The translations under genes and the position numbers were made by a program. This document shows positions 23,375 to 30,712 of a stretch of 64,000 nucleotides of DNA, piece after piece. The stretch is from the NCBI RefSeq assembly GCF_009765375.1, contig NZ_VTOK01000016.1, positions 1 through 64,000 of the forward strand, read 5' to 3'. Within the stretch, counting starts at the first letter, position 1; each line of letters begins with the position of its first letter. The notes beneath the pieces were generated by a model. That model did no database searches. It had not been told where the DNA came from and was given only the letters and a program-made list of their open reading frames with translations. Source of the DNA: Alteribacillus sp. YIM 98480 (GTDB taxonomy: Bacteria; Bacillota; Bacilli; Bacillales; Marinococcaceae).

Positions 23375-23564
23375 CATATTAATACCGATTGTTCATGTTT
23401 AACGAAATCAGTCCGCATCGATCGTTTATATGTTAAATCTTTTGTAAAGTCCAGATTTTCCACTTTATACTTCATATTTTTAAAGTATAATGAAAGAGCC
23501 AAACGGAGCATTATTCAAACTATATTATAAAAATGCAGTACCGCATGAAGAAGGAGGGAAAAGT

Positions 23565-23954
23565 ATGAGTGAAACAATGTTACAGAAGATATTAGAAGAA
23601 TTGAAAGAAATGAATGTTGAAGTGAAAGGAATGAAGACGGAACAACAACTTACAAACCAACGGCTTACATCTCTTGAAACAAATCAGCAGCAGACCAACC
23701 AGCGGTTTGACACATTCGAAACCGAGCAGCAGCAAACCAATCAGCGGCTTCACACTTTCGAAACCGAGCAGCAGCAAACCAACCAACGGCTTGACGTAAT
23801 AAAAACGGAGCAGACCCTAATTAAACAGGCTGTGTTAGAGACAAATGAAATTGTTCACAGATTGGAATTAAATCAAGAAAAGCATGAACGTATTCTTGAT
23901 CTGCTCTCTAGACGTTCTATTGAGCAGGAAGCTGAACTCAAGAAAATGAAGTAG
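23565..23954 (+). CDS. Coiled-coil protein with 14-residue tandem repeats
   Basis: A 129-residue protein of unknown function. Residues about 25-80 hold four tandem copies of a 14-residue unit (consensus TEQQQTNQRLxTFE), that is two heptads each, giving a long continuous coiled coil; at DNA level the 42-base units are nearly identical. The C-terminal part (IVHRLELNQEKHERILDLL) continues the coil. The ATG at 23565 has a strong AAGGAGGG site; an upstream ATG at 23490 does not. Copy number in such arrays can change by slippage. The product is probably a cytosolic oligomerising protein. Confidence 0.78.
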   Translation: MSETMLQKILEELKEMNVEVKGMKTEQQLTNQRLTSLETNQQQTNQRFDTFETEQQQTNQRLHTFETEQQQTNQRLDVIKTEQTLIKQAVLETNEIVHRLELNQEKHERILDLLSRRSIEQEAELKKMK

Positions 23955-25285: not shown

Positions 25286-25649
25286 CGCGGCAAAAAAGAC
25301 ACTACGATAGTGAGCAAATAGAGTTAGAATAGATGTCTCACTTAACAAAGTTAAACATACCCAAGTAACCATTTATACAGATCTAAAGTCTTGTGATCTA
25401 CCTACTATAACTCATCTTTTGGAAGGTATTTTTAACAAAATGTTCCATTCCCACTCTCCAAAAACATGACTAATGTTTCATTCCAAGAAATGATTTATTT
25501 ATGTATATTAAAGTTTAGACTGTTTCAAATTTTCTAATACTTTAGGTCTGTTTAAGTGTATTACGGAACAAAGTATCACAAAATACTAAGGCTGCTGTCG
25601 TTGGATTGGCAGGCAGCCAAGTTTGTTCTATTTGTTTAGGAGGGGTATC

Positions 25650-28600
25650 TTGAAACAAGAAAGCACTTTACGTTTATTGGCTATACGTCCAGCCAAGTTA
25701 AAATTGAAACAAGATTACAAACGCAAACAACATCCTCTTTATTCTAAAGAACAGGAAATAACCGAATTGTACAACCAGCTTAGTGAAATGTTGAATAATA
25801 ATGTCAGCAAAGAAAAGATAGTTGATAGAATAAAAGAATTTAAAAAGTCACCGGCTTACGTGAATCATATGGATGATTTAGATTTTGACATCCACCCCTT
25901 GTTCTTGTGGTCGGAAAAAAATCGAAACCAATTGGTAAAGGACATTCATTTTCAGGAAGAAGTGACGGCTCTTTACCAGAGTAAACCTCAAGATATTATT
26001 CAATCAAAAGCTTTTATACATTCTAATAATTCTTTAATGGACACTTTACTTTCTAACAGTATGGTTCAACAAAATAACACGAATAATGATGAGATAATGA
26101 TGGCGTTAAAACTTATGCATTTATTAACCCAAGCAGCTCTTAATAATATTAATAAAGAAATTCCAAGTGATTTGACCTTAAAAAGACTCATAAGCGATGT
26201 AACGGTCGTGTTTCCACCTAGCATCGACCTGCAGCAAATATCAACTCCTTCTTATGAGAAAGAAGAACCTGATGAAGAGACAAATGATATCAATGATAAC
26301 CAAGTGGAAAATCAGAAACTGCGGGAGAAATTGAAAAATTTGGAAATAGCACATCGTGAATTATCTATACTGCCAATAGATGAAAGATTCATACATTCTC
26401 CAAAGGCAGACGATGCGCTTATTTCTAAAATCAAGTCATTGCAAGAAACCATTACAAAATTGGAAAGTGATAGAGAGAAATGGTACGAAAAAGAAATCGT
26501 CGAAAATAAGATTTTTTCATTAGATGAAAATGCTGTCATGGACTTTCAAGGGTCCGAAGATTTTTACCTTTCCAAGCGAGGTATTCAACAACTTAGTGAC
26601 CCCACTTTCAAGCTATTACAAGAGGGAAACATAGATGTAGAACGAATTAATCCGGTAAAAGCAGTCCAAAGATTGGAAGACGAGATGGCGTATACAGGTG
26701 CTTTCGTCAAATCGGAGATGTCTTTTTCAACTAAACTTGCACTCGGCGGAATTTATGTAGATAAAGAAAAATTTAGACATTCAATAGGCCATACCTCCAG
26801 CAAGAAAAACCCTTCCATTCCTGACCCTCCTGAAGATCATTGTACATTTAAAGCAGGAATCGGCGACTTATTAAAAGTAAAACAAACTTTAAAAAATTAT
26901 GAACTTGGCGAATTTGCCCACGTTGAAAATGTACTCGCGGGTGAATCCAGAGAGCGGTCTCATCGTCGTCTTCACGTACAGGAAGAGACAATGACAATAG
27001 AGGAAGAACGTGAAACCAAAACGGAACGAAATTTACAAAGTACCGAACGTCATGAATTACAAAATGAAGCAGAAAAAACCATTAAAAATGAGATGGACAT
27101 GGAAGCAGGACTGCAAATCAGCGGCTCCTATGGCCCTGCTGTAAAATTTTCCTCTTCGCTAAATGCCAGCTATTCCACCTCCATCGAGGAATCTCAACGT
27201 AAAACTAGCGCCTATTCACGAGAGGTAACTGAAAAAGCTGCTGAACACGTCAAGGAACGTATTTTGGAAGAACAAAAACGCCGTTTAATGGAAGAAATTG
27301 AAGAAACAAATAAACATTTAGTGGATAACTCTGCTCCAGCCAATGGACACATCCGGGGGATTTATCGTTGGTTGAACAAAATCTATGATGCCCAAGTCTT
27401 TAAATATGATCAGCGCATGATGTACGAGTTCATCATTCCCGAACCAGCGGCCTACTTTTTATTTGCGTTAGTAGACAACCCGCCAACTGATTTAGAAATA
27501 GAGCAGCCGGAAATCCCTACTTACTACGGCAGGCCGCTTAAGCCTGAAAATATAACGCGAACCAATTACCATGATTTCATCAGTAAATATCAAGTGACAG
27601 ATGCTCCCGAACCCCCATCAGCCTTTAAACACGTCAGCTATTTTGACAAACAGGATGGAGAGACGTTTACGCATTACGGACGTTCCGGAAAGATTGAAAT
27701 TGATCCAGACTATGAAGCATATGCTGCCACAGCAATGAGGGATTACATTTTCATTAAGGGGGAAAGCAAGCATTTTAGGGTCATGGTAGGAGGAGTTAAT
27801 TTTGATCTATCCGATAAATGGGGAACCCAGTTCAAAACATTGAATACACGACGAAATGAAGTTTCCATCGCTGTTCACCTATATAACTCATCTAGTTTTT
27901 CGCTGGCGGTTGATGTTCATTGCCGCTTGACTGGTGAAGGATTTGCTAAGTGGCAGCATGATATGTATGATGCCATCATGCAAGCATACCAACAGCAGCA
28001 GATGGATTATGAAGAAAAAGTCGCTGCTGCATCGATTGAGCAGGGTGTTGAAATACTTGGACGTAATCCTTTGGAGAATCGACGGATTGAACGAGAAGAA
28101 CTGAAAAAACTTGTTATCATGATGCTATCTGGATCTTCCAATATTAGCAAGGACAGCTTTGAGCCATTCTATTCTGAGCCTGTTATGGATATAGAAAAAA
28201 CTTGTGAAAATGGGTCCCATATACGTTTTTTGGAGCATGCGTTTGAATGGAATAATTTATTGTATATACTATACCCGTACTTTTGGGGCCGAAAATCCCG
28301 CTGGATTTCTGCGTTACATTTTACCGATCCAGATCCTGATTTTGCCGCTTTTTTAAAGGCAGGAGCAGCGCGTGTTCAGCTTCCTGTCAGACCAGGATTC
28401 GAACGTGCCGTTGCTCATTTCTGCCAGTTTGGTGAAGTTTGGGAAGGTAATGACATTCCATTGCGAGATGACGAATTATATGTGCCAATTATTGATGAAA
28501 TGACAGAAAACTTAGATAAACCAGAAGAAGGAATTCCCTATCCAGAAGACTCCCAACCATGGGAACTTACCATCCCAACGTCACTTGTCATGCTGCAAAA

Positions 28601-28679
28601 TTTAGAGGAAATTCCAGAGATTCGTGACATTTTAACAGGAGAACCGGTGAACATCACAAACAACAAAAATCAACCCTAA
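25650..28679 (+). CDS. Large coiled-coil protein of unknown function (about 1,009 residues)
   Basis: The TTG at 25650 follows a strong AGGAGGGG site; an upstream frame extension to 25623 overlaps that site and is rejected. Seen: an N-terminal helical region, a coiled coil around residues 215-285, a segment GIGDLLKVKQTLKNYELGEF followed by AHVENVLAGESRERSHRR (about 403-440), a very charged helix, then a Ser/Gly-rich stretch GLQISGSYGPAVKFSSSLNA (about 487-506) flanked by further long helices, the block YRWLNKIYDAQVFKYDQRMM with YEFIIPEPAAYFLFAL, and a C-terminal globular part. No signal peptide or membrane helix. The function is not known to me. The next gene follows within tens of bases, so the two are co-transcribed. 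Confidence 0.8.
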   Translation: MKQESTLRLLAIRPAKLKLKQDYKRKQHPLYSKEQEITELYNQLSEMLNNNVSKEKIVDRIKEFKKSPAYVNHMDDLDFDIHPLFLWSEKNRNQLVKDIHFQEEVTALYQSKPQDIIQSKAFIHSNNSLMDTLLSNSMVQQNNTNNDEIMMALKLMHLLTQAALNNINKEIPSDLTLKRLISDVTVVFPPSIDLQQISTPSYEKEEPDEETNDINDNQVENQKLREKLKNLEIAHRELSILPIDERFIHSPKADDALISKIKSLQETITKLESDREKWYEKEIVENKIFSLDENAVMDFQGSEDFYLSKRGIQQLSDPTFKLLQEGNIDVERINPVKAVQRLEDEMAYTGAFVKSEMSFSTKLALGGIYVDKEKFRHSIGHTSSKKNPSIPDPPEDHCTFKAGIGDLLKVKQTLKNYELGEFAHVENVLAGESRERSHRRLHVQEETMTIEEERETKTERNLQSTERHELQNEAEKTIKNEMDMEAGLQISGSYGPAVKFSSSLNASYSTSIEESQRKTSAYSREVTEKAAEHVKERILEEQKRRLMEEIEETNKHLVDNSAPANGHIRGIYRWLNKIYDAQVFKYDQRMMYEFIIPEPAAYFLFALVDNPPTDLEIEQPEIPTYYGRPLKPENITRTNYHDFISKYQVTDAPEPPSAFKHVSYFDKQDGETFTHYGRSGKIEIDPDYEAYAATAMRDYIFIKGESKHFRVMVGGVNFDLSDKWGTQFKTLNTRRNEVSIAVHLYNSSSFSLAVDVHCRLTGEGFAKWQHDMYDAIMQAYQQQQMDYEEKVAAASIEQGVEILGRNPLENRRIEREELKKLVIMMLSGSSNISKDSFEPFYSEPVMDIEKTCENGSHIRFLEHAFEWNNLLYILYPYFWGRKSRWISALHFTDPDPDFAAFLKAGAARVQLPVRPGFERAVAHFCQFGEVWEGNDIPLRDDELYVPIIDEMTENLDKPEEGIPYPEDSQPWELTIPTSLVMLQNLEEIPEIRDILTGEPVNITNNKNQP

Positions 28680-28722
28680 GAACGATCAACTCCATCCACC
28701 TTCGATTTATTATGATAGCCAG

Positions 28723-29820
28723 TTGGGAAAGGATGAACAAAGAGATATGGACCACTATATTCTTATAGCTGCAGTGGATTACGAATTTGATGGCGGCACT
28801 TCCGATTTTAGAGTATTGTGTGACAATCGGATGAAAAGAATAATTGCTCAAAATAAAGCGAAGAAAGCCATGATGTTTCATATTTATGATTTTCTTCGCG
28901 GTGAGATCGCCACCCATGAAATTACCTATCATAAAGGCATCAAGAAACAAAACAAAACCGTGCAAAATAAATTTGCTCGTATTTCCAAAGCAAATTATAC
29001 ATCGAACCATGGAAGCTATCGTTTTAAAGATGGGCAAGATAACGTGATGTCCATATTGGATGTATACCAAAAAGTACAGAATATTGGAAAGAACTCCCCC
29101 CATTCCCTCATTGAGCTGAGCTTCTTTTCCCATGGTTGGATGGGTGGGCCGATTCTTGTTAACAGTTATGATGACAGGGAAGCAAACATTCAATTACATC
29201 CGTCTCTTCCAAGCTTCACACACAGTTATCGCGGCTCATCATTACGTGATCCCGACGATAAAGATCCGCGTGGTAATCTAGATTTTAATTCACCAACGAT
29301 GACAAACCAAGACTTAAAAAATTTTCAAAATGCTTTTCATAATAAGGGGTATATATGGATATGGGGATGTGCCTTTCCCCGTAGCATTCATCAAATTTTA
29401 CACAAAATGGAAAAGCATCCTTCGTATCGGGAGAATGGTTTAGGTGATGATACCCTTTTTGTATTTACTAACTTTACGAAGGAAGAAGTTAAACTATTAG
29501 AAAACTACTTGCAGGGCCATCTTCCTCCATTTCCGGATAAACAAAAAATTGCAATTGAATTTAAGTATATAAAATTTTTCTTCTGTTTAGCTAATCAAAA
29601 CAGTTACTCTTATCAAATTGCTAAACATGCCAATGTTAAAACTTATGCAGCATTGTTAGGAACGTATTCCATTTACGAAAAAGGAAGGCTGCCGCTTTTA
29701 AAAATAGAAGGCGCATTTAAACGGCATTTCAAGTTTTATAAAAATTACTTAGGGTTTGATTTCGATCCGGAAGGCAGAAACTATGGTGAATATCTACCAG
29801 GAATGAGTTGTTCCGTATAA
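28723..29820 (+). CDS. Putative caspase-like (His/Cys) protein
   Basis: A protein of about 365 residues with two striking spots: IELSFFSHGWMGGPILVNSY (His137-Gly) and GYIWIWGCAFPRSI (Cys216). A hydrophobic strand ending in HG and a later one ending in GC is the arrangement of the clan CD peptidase fold (caspases, CHAT, clostripain), so a cysteine protease is a reasonable but unproven guess. No signal peptide. The TTG at 28723 is tentative: the frame is open back to about 28650, and ATG at 28747 is an alternative. It directly follows the large coiled-coil gene and is closed by a hairpin at 29826. Confidence 0.72.
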   Translation: MGKDEQRDMDHYILIAAVDYEFDGGTSDFRVLCDNRMKRIIAQNKAKKAMMFHIYDFLRGEIATHEITYHKGIKKQNKTVQNKFARISKANYTSNHGSYRFKDGQDNVMSILDVYQKVQNIGKNSPHSLIELSFFSHGWMGGPILVNSYDDREANIQLHPSLPSFTHSYRGSSLRDPDDKDPRGNLDFNSPTMTNQDLKNFQNAFHNKGYIWIWGCAFPRSIHQILHKMEKHPSYRENGLGDDTLFVFTNFTKEEVKLLENYLQGHLPPFPDKQKIAIEFKYIKFFFCLANQNSYSYQIAKHANVKTYAALLGTYSIYEKGRLPLLKIEGAFKRHFKFYKNYLGFDFDPEGRNYGEYLPGMSCSV

Positions 29821-29825
29821 AACAT

Positions 29826-29849
29826 CCCCATAATTTCCGGGGTTTGTTT
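29826..29849 (+). terminator. Terminator after the caspase-like gene
   Basis: CCCC-ATAATTTCC-GGGG followed by TTTGTTT, six bases after the stop codon. The stem is short. Confidence 0.55.
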
Positions 29850-29996: not shown

Positions 29997-30461
29997 TCAT
30001 TTCTGCCTGTTTGCATACCTAATGATTGAAGTGCTGTAGCTGCGGGACCTCCTCCACAATTTATGATCAAAAAGAATACGAAATAACACTAAATACAATA
30101 TTAAAAATAATTTTCCACTTGCTCTGATGATTCCTTCATCACTGACAGCATTAATTACTCTGTCATTTGGATGGTTATCGGAAACATCGGAAAAATCAGC
30201 GTGCGGACGACCACTTGTATCTAAATCTAAAGCCCTCACGATCATCGCGGCTGCCTGGCTCCGCGTAATGTCCTGATTAGGTTTAAAACTCCCATCCGAA
30301 TATCCGTTAATGATTTCTCTTTTTGCTAAATATTCAATACTATCTTTTGCCCAAAAGTCATCAGATACGTCCGTAAAATTGGCTGCTTCTGCTTTCGGTG
30401 TTACCATAAACATCGCAACAGCCCCAGCTACACTTAAAGTGAGCCGTTTCCAACTTTTCAT
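29997..30461 (-). pseudogene. S-layer homology (SLH) domain exported protein, truncated
   Basis: Starts at ATG 30461 behind GGGGGAG with a signal peptide (KSWKRLTLSVAGAVAMFMV to AEA), then a complete SLH motif (FTDVSDDFWAKDSIEYLAKR, INGYSDGSFKPNQDITRSQA) and the first half of a second (DFSDVSDNHPNDRVINAV). After DEGIIRASGK the sequence turns hydrophobic and unrelated, and the frame ends at 29997. In another frame the region near 29960-30060 reads CGGGPAATALQSLGMQTGRN, probably the tail of the original protein. SLH domains bind secondary cell wall polymer; this gene has an internal deletion and lacks its functional part. Confidence 0.75.
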
Positions 30462-30712
30462 TCTACTCCCCCACTTTATGTATTTTGTTACTATTGTCTC
30501 AAAATTCACCATTTTTTTATATGGGGATTTGTTGCGATCAGTTTTTTTATATACAATGAATTGCTCAAAAATCTGGACTATTCTTGAAAATTCGATGTCA
30601 AGATAACATGAATATCCTATGGTAAATATATGTGGTAAATCTATCTCGTTTTTGTTACAATTCAACTTTTTGTAACAAATCTTATCATGAAGGTATTGTC
30701 TGAATATATAAA

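Follow-up and report, generated by a model that had tools for sequence, protein, structure and literature searches.

A 64,000-nucleotide stretch of the Alteribacillus sp. YIM 98480 genome (assembly GCF_009765375.1, contig NZ_VTOK01000016.1, positions 1 to 64,000; hereafter the window) contains two adjacent genes, called here gene 1 and gene 2, which form a two-gene unit. Relatives of gene 1 occur in many bacterial phyla and in some archaea, and the gene that accompanies it has been exchanged repeatedly. The coordinates are collected in Table 1. A preliminary description of the region, made from the letters alone, had announced a ribosome site in front of a 1,009-residue protein, followed by a caspase-like protein; indeed, AGGAGGGG precedes the TTG at 25,650, both open reading frames (ORFs) are present, and the quoted blocks AHVENVLAGESRERSHRR, GLQISGSYGPAVKFSSSLNA and YEFIIPEPAAYFLFAL, together with SHG (His137) and WGC (Cys216), are all found in the translations. 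The start of gene 1 coincides with that of its relative in Bacillus piscicola FBU1786 (locus L014), which begins at the corresponding residue. The native product of gene 2 is probably 357 amino acids (aa) long, because the ATG at 28,747 aligns with the first residue of most relatives. The two genes lie 43 nt apart and are plausibly read on one transcript. As to the hairpin behind gene 2, a stem scan listed a terminator-like stem on the minus strand only, with a stem count not above that of shuffled sequences. The genome holds a single copy of gene 2. The surroundings, which had been called decayed and repeat-rich, are not rich in repeats: the 64 kb have only four short tandem arrays, and the repeats between 19,000 and 36,000 measure only 22-30 nt; long ORFs are scarce in the ORF list at 20.7-25.6 kb.

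Table 1. Features of the two-gene locus in the window, and classes of partner gene found beside gene 1 at related loci (PAD, protein-arginine deiminase)
Feature	Position	Strand	Loci	Basis or remark
Gene 1 Shine-Dalgarno sequence AGGAGGGG	25638..25645	+		read in sequence
Gene 1, carrier candidate, 1009 aa	25650..28679	+		TTG start; no family model match
N-terminal helical domain, residues 1-395, fast evolving	25650..26834	+		model, alignments
Length-locked hairpin, residues 400-597 (arms 400-485 and 498-562; amphipathic beta tip ~487-511)	26847..27440	+
Predicted jelly-roll/beta-sandwich domain, residues 658-761	27621..27932	+		model, fold matches
Helical stalk and conserved alpha/beta C-terminal part, residues 762-1009	27933..28676	+		model, alignments
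Gene 2, predicted clan CD (caspase-fold) cysteine peptidase	28723..29820	+		365 aa from TTG; likely start ATG 28747
Predicted catalytic His137 (CAT) in FFSHG, after predicted strand 129-135	29131..29133	+		model, alignment
Predicted catalytic Cys216 (TGT) in WIWGC, after predicted strand 205-214	29368..29370	+		model, alignment
Weak terminator-like hairpin CCCC-N9-GGGG with T-rich tail, 3' of gene 2	29826..29849	+		read in sequence
Caspase-like partner			14	homology to gene 2
PT-TG pre-toxin partner			12 labelled	16 hidden Markov model hits; L025 reaches Pfam cut-off
Het-C partner			10	L078 E 3.2e-8, over cut-off; L052 below; two others scanned without match
Patatin partner			8	L006 E 6e-22 (Pfam)
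PAD partner			7 (L015, L016, L017, L018, L019, L055, L059)	L016 E 2e-38
M23 peptidase partner			4, all Micromonospora	Pfam
PhoD partner			3	Pfam
LodA lysine oxidase partner			2	E 1e-60
Amine oxidase partner			1	Pfam
PLD partner			1	Pfam
Class C8, unnamed 387-aa partner			4	C-terminal hydrophobic stretch in 4/4
Five further partner classes				unnamed

Both genes are genuine and undamaged, and purifying selection acts on both. The B. piscicola relatives are full-length and 72% (gene 1) and 74% (gene 2) identical, and the rates of nonsynonymous and synonymous substitution (dN/dS) against them are 0.17/1.23 (about 0.14) for gene 1 and 0.13/1.17 (about 0.11) for gene 2, with synonymous sites near saturation. 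These ratios from a full-length relative, and the wide homology of the genes, mean that the ORFs are not chance ones. When 12-42 kb of the window was compared with 23 kb of the B. piscicola locus, the similarity was confined to 25,623-29,835 and the flanking genes differed; since only these two genes are common to both loci, the pair is a cassette. Its distribution is sporadic: gene 2 was found in two of the 29 genomes of the window's family (the window's own and G005), being absent from the two other genomes of the genus; among 398 genomes from the phylum it turned up in the window's only, and gene 1 was found in two of 299 genomes of the order, the window's included. Together with the locus comparison, this looks like a horizontally moved cassette. 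A phage origin was rejected, because 50,697 phage records gave no match for either gene and viral contigs yielded only three loci for gene 1 (L094, L095 and L096, perhaps prophage or mis-binned host DNA) and none for gene 2.

The predicted fold and an invariant His/Cys pair support gene 2 as a clan CD cysteine peptidase, as had been proposed from the two motifs. The model, built from an alignment of 12 gene 2 sequences (A4), has a predicted local distance difference test score (pLDDT) of 84.3 and a predicted template modelling score (pTM) of 0.87. A Foldseek search of the PDB with this model returned three C11 proteases as the best matches (E 1e-3 to 5e-3), the rows below them being unrelated and weaker (E 0.027 and up). 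When Foldseek's 1000 best were realigned with VIA-align, 49 of the 50 listed rows were clan CD proteins by title, namely C11, legumain, MALT1, SAVED-CHAT, metacaspases and caspases, and the remaining one (3bij, GSU0716) names no family. The best row, 6mzo, had Z 7.9 and a root-mean-square deviation of 3.8 Å over 185 aligned residues; a Z below 8 alone would be moderate, yet so uniform a clan CD list is telling. His137 and Cys216, each placed after a predicted core strand, are conserved in 12/12 rows of A4, in 4/4 rows of a second alignment (A2) that adds L003 and L004, and in the later loci L101, L144 and L146, that is, in all 17 loci with the window included; thus no homologue lacking either residue was encountered. 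At L021 two gene 2-like domains stand in tandem and, by eye, only the second has the dyad.

Like the C11 protease iotapain, legumain, MALT1, metacaspase, SAVED-CHAT and caspase, gene 2 would carry its His and Cys after core strands of a caspase fold; unlike them, it matches no Pfam clan CD family and has conserved blocks of its own (RDPDDxDxR and FYKNYxGFxxDPEG in the A4 consensus). Pfam clan CD families such as C14, C11, C13, C25 and CHAT gave no match to the window's gene 2 at E up to 10, to the L003 and L004 proteins at E up to 1, or to those of L021 and L085 at E up to 0.1, and nothing significant was found for gene 2 in Pfam, PHROGs, PADLOC, NCBIfam or among PDB sequences.

For the gene 1 protein, too, these five collections gave no significant match, in agreement with the earlier statement that it has no recognised domain. 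A Pfam scan of nine family members gave no convincing match, a known trafficking domain included; the other libraries were run on the window's protein only. PDB profile matches (BRD4, E 0.006, and three weaker ones), all located in the helical N-terminal domain, were set aside as low-complexity, as was a Pfam HAM1_N match in one of the nine (E 0.008). The fold model (pLDDT 76, pTM 0.60) agrees only in part with the earlier picture of a giant coiled coil: it has a helical N-terminal domain, long strands with a hairpin between them, a jelly roll, a helical stalk (residues 762-827) and an alpha/beta end. The fold matches listed for gene 1 concern mainly the jelly roll and are generic (best Z 9.0). 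The C-terminal part bears the family consensus FxEQAFEWENLxYxFYPYFWGRK. The protein starts with LRLLAIRP in the window, where many relatives have FRFxxxRP (strict pattern in 48 of 96 gene 1 ORFs). A hydropathy scan of the same 96 ORFs found a transmembrane-like peak in ten, and no signal peptide stood out.

The N-terminal domain is a separate gene in several relatives. At L072, L073, L077, L081, L084, L088 and L147, separate N-terminal and core genes are followed by a small conserved protein of 109-139 aa; at L088 the match to it sits in an ill-called ORF, and at L147 the core itself occupies two ORFs. Apart from this protein at the split-gene loci, no third gene was found to recur beside the pair across partner classes.

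A remarkable constraint on gene 1 lies in its hairpin. In the model, two long strands of nearly 30 residues each (401-428 and 568-597) flank a low-confidence stretch. This region was followed in an alignment (A5) of 70 sequences, the window and 69 of 73 eligible loci, from which ORFs outside 900-1270 aa and the near copies L046, L048, L061 and L069 were left out. Both hairpin arms are without any insertion or gap (0/85 junctions at residues 400-485 and 0/64 at 498-562), against insertions at 35 of 400 junctions at residues 600-1000; within 400-597, the only sites with insertions are 486, 490 and 496, at the tip, and 563. The best other 85-junction stretch among those tried had three junctions with an insertion. 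Furthermore, the tip (488-505) has a strong hydrophobic moment of the beta type (0.485 versus 0.095 for the alpha type), and part of the second arm (512-541) has a strong alpha-type moment (0.40-0.50). Symmetry, a locked length and an amphipathic beta tip would be expected of a channel or of a hairpin that pierces membranes.

Gene 1 belongs to a widespread family. Fifteen plasmid records encode parts of it at 21-36% identity, in hosts that include rhizobia, actinobacteria, Cupriavidus, Chryseobacterium, a cyanobacterium and a haloarchaeon. Scanning genome contigs with two gene 1 patterns matched at least 591 stretches, of which at least 480 were confirmed as relatives (a gene holding both patterns may count twice among these), and the best 80 loci were kept. 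By title, these belong to Bacillota, Pseudomonadota, Actinomycetota, Bacteroidota, Acidobacteriota, Cyanobacteriota, Chloroflexota, Planctomycetota, Verrucomicrobiota, Myxococcota, Desulfobacterota, others and two methane archaea. In two sampled classes known to hold the family, gene 1 was found at E 0.001 or better in nine of 394 genomes (six below 1e-100; three known already) and in seven of 369 (three known already), a frequency of about one to two per cent (strong matches 6/394; 7/369). The weak matches of the first sample are G848, G933 and G1093.

The linkage of the two genes, also foreseen in the preliminary description, is seen from both sides. All 14 caspase-like relatives adjoin gene 1 or lie one gene away (L004), a figure that is partly so by construction, as these loci were gathered via gene 1. 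With gene 2 as the query, gene 1 was close by in 3/3 plasmid records (two of them near-identical Ensifer plasmids), and the 394 genomes of the class of L090 yielded one new genome, with a frame-split gene 1 immediately upstream; no unlinked homologue came up in these searches. Gene 1 occupies two reading frames at L005, L029, L036 and L101, through either recent decay or sequencing errors.

The gene next to gene 1 changes. Clustering of gene 1 neighbours, named by Pfam where possible, gave 17 partner classes (11 named types and six unnamed, with two PT-TG ends counted apart). The nearest same-strand partner stands downstream of gene 1 in 72 of 77 labelled loci, and in 67 of the 77 a partner is at most 150 nt away or overlaps, as far as crude ORF calls tell. 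On a tree of 92 gene 1 cores, 76 rows of which were labelled with the 17 classes, the partner label changes 35 times, against a possible minimum of 16 and 53-60 changes (mean 56) in 60 shuffles; partners are therefore inherited for a while and swapped often. The duplicates L001, L002 and L011 and the divergent L010 were left out of this tree, and L005, L029 and L036 were represented by their longest gene 1 piece only. The caspase label alone changes seven times, and the window and B. piscicola are placed among PAD-paired relatives, a set with 97-98% support in the Shimodaira-Hasegawa-like approximate likelihood ratio test (SH-aLRT), with the caspase-paired L021 as the nearest outgroup. Eight further loci were found by gene 1 regardless of their partners (L143 left out); at three of these (L101, L144 and L146) a caspase-like gene is the first or second neighbour, and L147 has a distant PT-TG-like gene on the other strand.

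The exchange continues within one class. PT-TG partners have the first 390 profile positions in common and at least two unrelated C-terminal ends, one of which reads like a PD-(D/E)XK nuclease and the other like an HNH nuclease; this is toxin-tip exchange in miniature. The preliminary description had proposed gene 1 as the substrate of the gene 2 protease. As a family rule this is not supported, and gene 2 as a fixed processing protease of gene 1 was likewise rejected, because in 63 of the 77 labelled loci the partner is a lipase, oxidase, deiminase, phosphatase, nuclease-like, M23 or unnamed protein; the caspase-like protease thus looks like one of many cartridges. An N-terminal domain specific for its cargo was also tried and rejected: among 84 rows, the median N-terminal similarity was 0.050 for the same as for different partners at core similarity 0.4-0.5, and 0.028 versus 0.030 at 0.3-0.4, while the higher same-partner values above 0.5 (0.176 versus 0.099; 0.300 versus 0.239) may be mere closeness.

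Two partner classes invite separate remarks. PAD enzymes adjoin gene 1 at seven loci, and an origin of such enzymes in a toxin-like cassette is conceivable; fungal PAD is inferred in PMC8826395 to come from actinobacteria. At both lysine oxidase loci the next gene encodes a 372-aa protein like those that bind FAD (L031:13944-15062 and L042:13855-14973). This gene is perhaps the maturation partner LodB.

How the partners reach their substrates bears on any explanation. A simple hydropathy scan, which covered at most six members of each class, showed no convincing signal peptide, the N-termini of two caspase-like partners and one oxidase partner being fairly hydrophobic. The M23 partner had no obvious signal peptide in 4/4 loci, and the substrate of an M23 peptidase lies outside the cytoplasm. 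Because the partners, M23 included, show no convincing signal peptides, a carrier (or lysis) would be needed; gene 1, with its constancy and its membrane-type hairpin, is the candidate.

The favoured explanation, given about an even chance of being right, is a two-gene toxin module in which gene 1 is the carrier and gene 2 the exchangeable enzyme, delivered to non-kin targets. Gene 1, the constant part, would be a soluble, oligomerising carrier that enters or traverses a membrane by means of its length-locked hairpin and the amphipathic tip of the latter; gene 2, the variable enzyme, would be brought to or through that membrane, and in the window's case the caspase-like peptidase would cut proteins in the target cell. 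Many of the named partners (patatin, PLD, amine oxidase, Het-C, PT-TG, PAD, PhoD, M23 and LodA) are of kinds used as toxins. For polymorphic toxin systems, Zhang et al. 2012 (PMC3482391) list caspase-like domains among both the toxins and the releasing peptidases, and count Het-C among the toxins. With no dedicated immunity gene in evidence, non-kin microbes or eukaryotic grazers are possible targets. Partner toxicity, carriage by gene 1, oligomerisation, entry into the membrane and the route out of the producer are likewise inferred.

Several observations weigh against this toxin module. Model confidence is below 60 at residues 421-570 of gene 1, so membrane insertion is argued from sequence periodicity and length locking, and a rigid coiled-coil stalk would fit the hairpin data too. 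Gene 1 matches no known delivery protein, the listed fold matches covering mainly the jelly-roll domain, and no cargo-binding site was found, as the N-terminal domain hardly tracks the partner class. Neither protein of the pair shows a Sec signal in the simple hydropathy scan, and no secretion system is tied to gene 1: Phage_sheath_1 exceeded its cut-off in 14 of 42 carrier genomes and not in the window's, and dependence on sheath-based injectors or extracellular contractile injection systems was rejected on these counts. A sheath gene suspected at the Micromonospora locus L047 was not found by eye among its ORFs. No immunity gene was recognised, although producers would need protection from nucleases; at four of eight loci with the restriction-endonuclease-like end, no same-strand ORF of at least 80 aa directly follows, and immunity may be partner-specific. 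Finally, the partner is unlabelled in 16 of the 92 tree rows, the neighbours fall outside the assigned classes at four of the eight further loci (L141, L142, L145 and L148), six of the 17 classes are nameless, and the two nuclease-like ends are our own interpretation.

A bolder form of the proposal, which is tentative and falls short of an even chance, makes gene 1 a one-protein, stand-alone injector that works across domains of life. The protein would assemble by itself into a membrane-piercing tube and carry the product of the next gene as cargo, be it a lipase, a nuclease-like toxin or a citrullinating or caspase-like enzyme, in some archaea as well.

The main rival, though rather unlikely, is an intracellular immunity or abortive-death module, in which gene 1 would sense infection or damage and activate the adjoining enzyme so that the cell dies. 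Partner exchange would then resemble the effector exchange of cyclic-oligonucleotide-based antiphage signalling systems (CBASS) or Avs systems. Known abortive systems use patatins, PLD, caspase-like proteases, nucleases and membrane proteins as effectors, and the partners of gene 1, with class C8 as the membrane protein, resemble them; moreover, this alternative requires no immunity gene and agrees with the sporadic distribution of the pair. Restriction-modification and VapC genes lie near the pair in Aulosira (L010), and in Ensifer (L004:10502-15282) SIR2-like and SMC-like genes, identified by eye, follow it in a possible defence island. However, the flanks of 17 loci (103 proteins) were not enriched in PADLOC matches, among those listed for up to 25 families, when set against 17 control stretches taken from these genomes (108 proteins); gene calling was crude, and flank locus L033 and control stretch L111 gave no genes. 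The frequent ones in the flanks were two kinase-type proteins, and those of the controls were more varied. A setting in defence islands was rejected for this reason. PADLOC itself gave no match to gene 1 or gene 2 at E up to 10, and an M23 peptidase and a pre-toxin domain would make little sense inside the cell.

In a further, improbable reading the assembly is non-toxic: gene 1 would be a scaffold or surface particle, and the enzyme held by it, secreted or stored, would serve in nutrition, coat building or stress. The jelly roll of gene 1 is unspecifically like capsid, spore-appendage and carbohydrate-binding domains, and PhoD or amine oxidase can be metabolic, but the frequent swapping suggests conflict, as do the pre-toxin and Het-C domains, and signal peptides were not seen. 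Least probable of all is a gasdermin-like protease-substrate pair, in which gene 2 would cleave gene 1 and pores would form in the host's own membrane: a clan CD peptidase is tightly linked to a protein with a possible membrane hairpin, but other partners prevail in the family and gene 1 of the caspase loci is not one clade.

Like the toxin module proposed here, polymorphic toxin systems combine exchangeable toxic enzymes with a constant delivery part, and enzyme types are common to both (caspase-like and Het-C included; one partner class has Pfam PT-TG). Unlike in those systems, the putative carrier and the enzyme are separate genes, so that exchange concerns whole genes, gene 1 has no Pfam trafficking domain, and no immunity gene was recognised. 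Binary AB toxins consist of a translocating B component and a separate A enzyme. The pair resembles them by analogy, with two genes for a candidate membrane-active carrier and an enzyme, but differs in that gene 1 has no sequence match (none to toxin B components in Pfam or among PDB sequences), in its 17 partner classes and in its presence in archaea and many soil and water bacteria. As with a bacterial gasdermin and its protease, a protease adjoins a possible membrane protein; the partner of gene 1 is usually not caspase-like, however, and gene 1 is several times larger than a gasdermin. No gasdermin match to gene 1 was found in Pfam or PADLOC or among the listed fold matches, which cover mainly one domain; because the VIA-align rows cover mainly residues 651-761, the absence of gasdermins and toxin B components from the fold lists is not evidence.

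No description of this pair was found in open-access full text (preprints not included). Exchangeable toxins and separate carriers and enzymes are known, while the carrier family and the two-gene layout appear to be new. A family that reaches the archaea is paired with a changing set of dangerous-looking enzymes. Should gene 1 deliver its partners, it would be a simple protein vehicle whose cargo can be exchanged; should it control them within the cell, it would represent a new immune family. The layout makes this question testable by deleting or swapping single genes, and it places bacterial caspase-like, arginine deiminase and lysine oxidase enzymes in a common context, which bears on their origins.

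Two neighbouring ORFs of the window complete the picture. Upstream of the pair, a 154-aa ORF with a 42-bp tandem repeat lies at 23,490-23,954, with no relation to the pair seen. Downstream, on the minus strand, the ORF at 29,997-30,665 has by eye an S-layer-homology-like stretch and an odd C-terminal end, and the gene is perhaps truncated.

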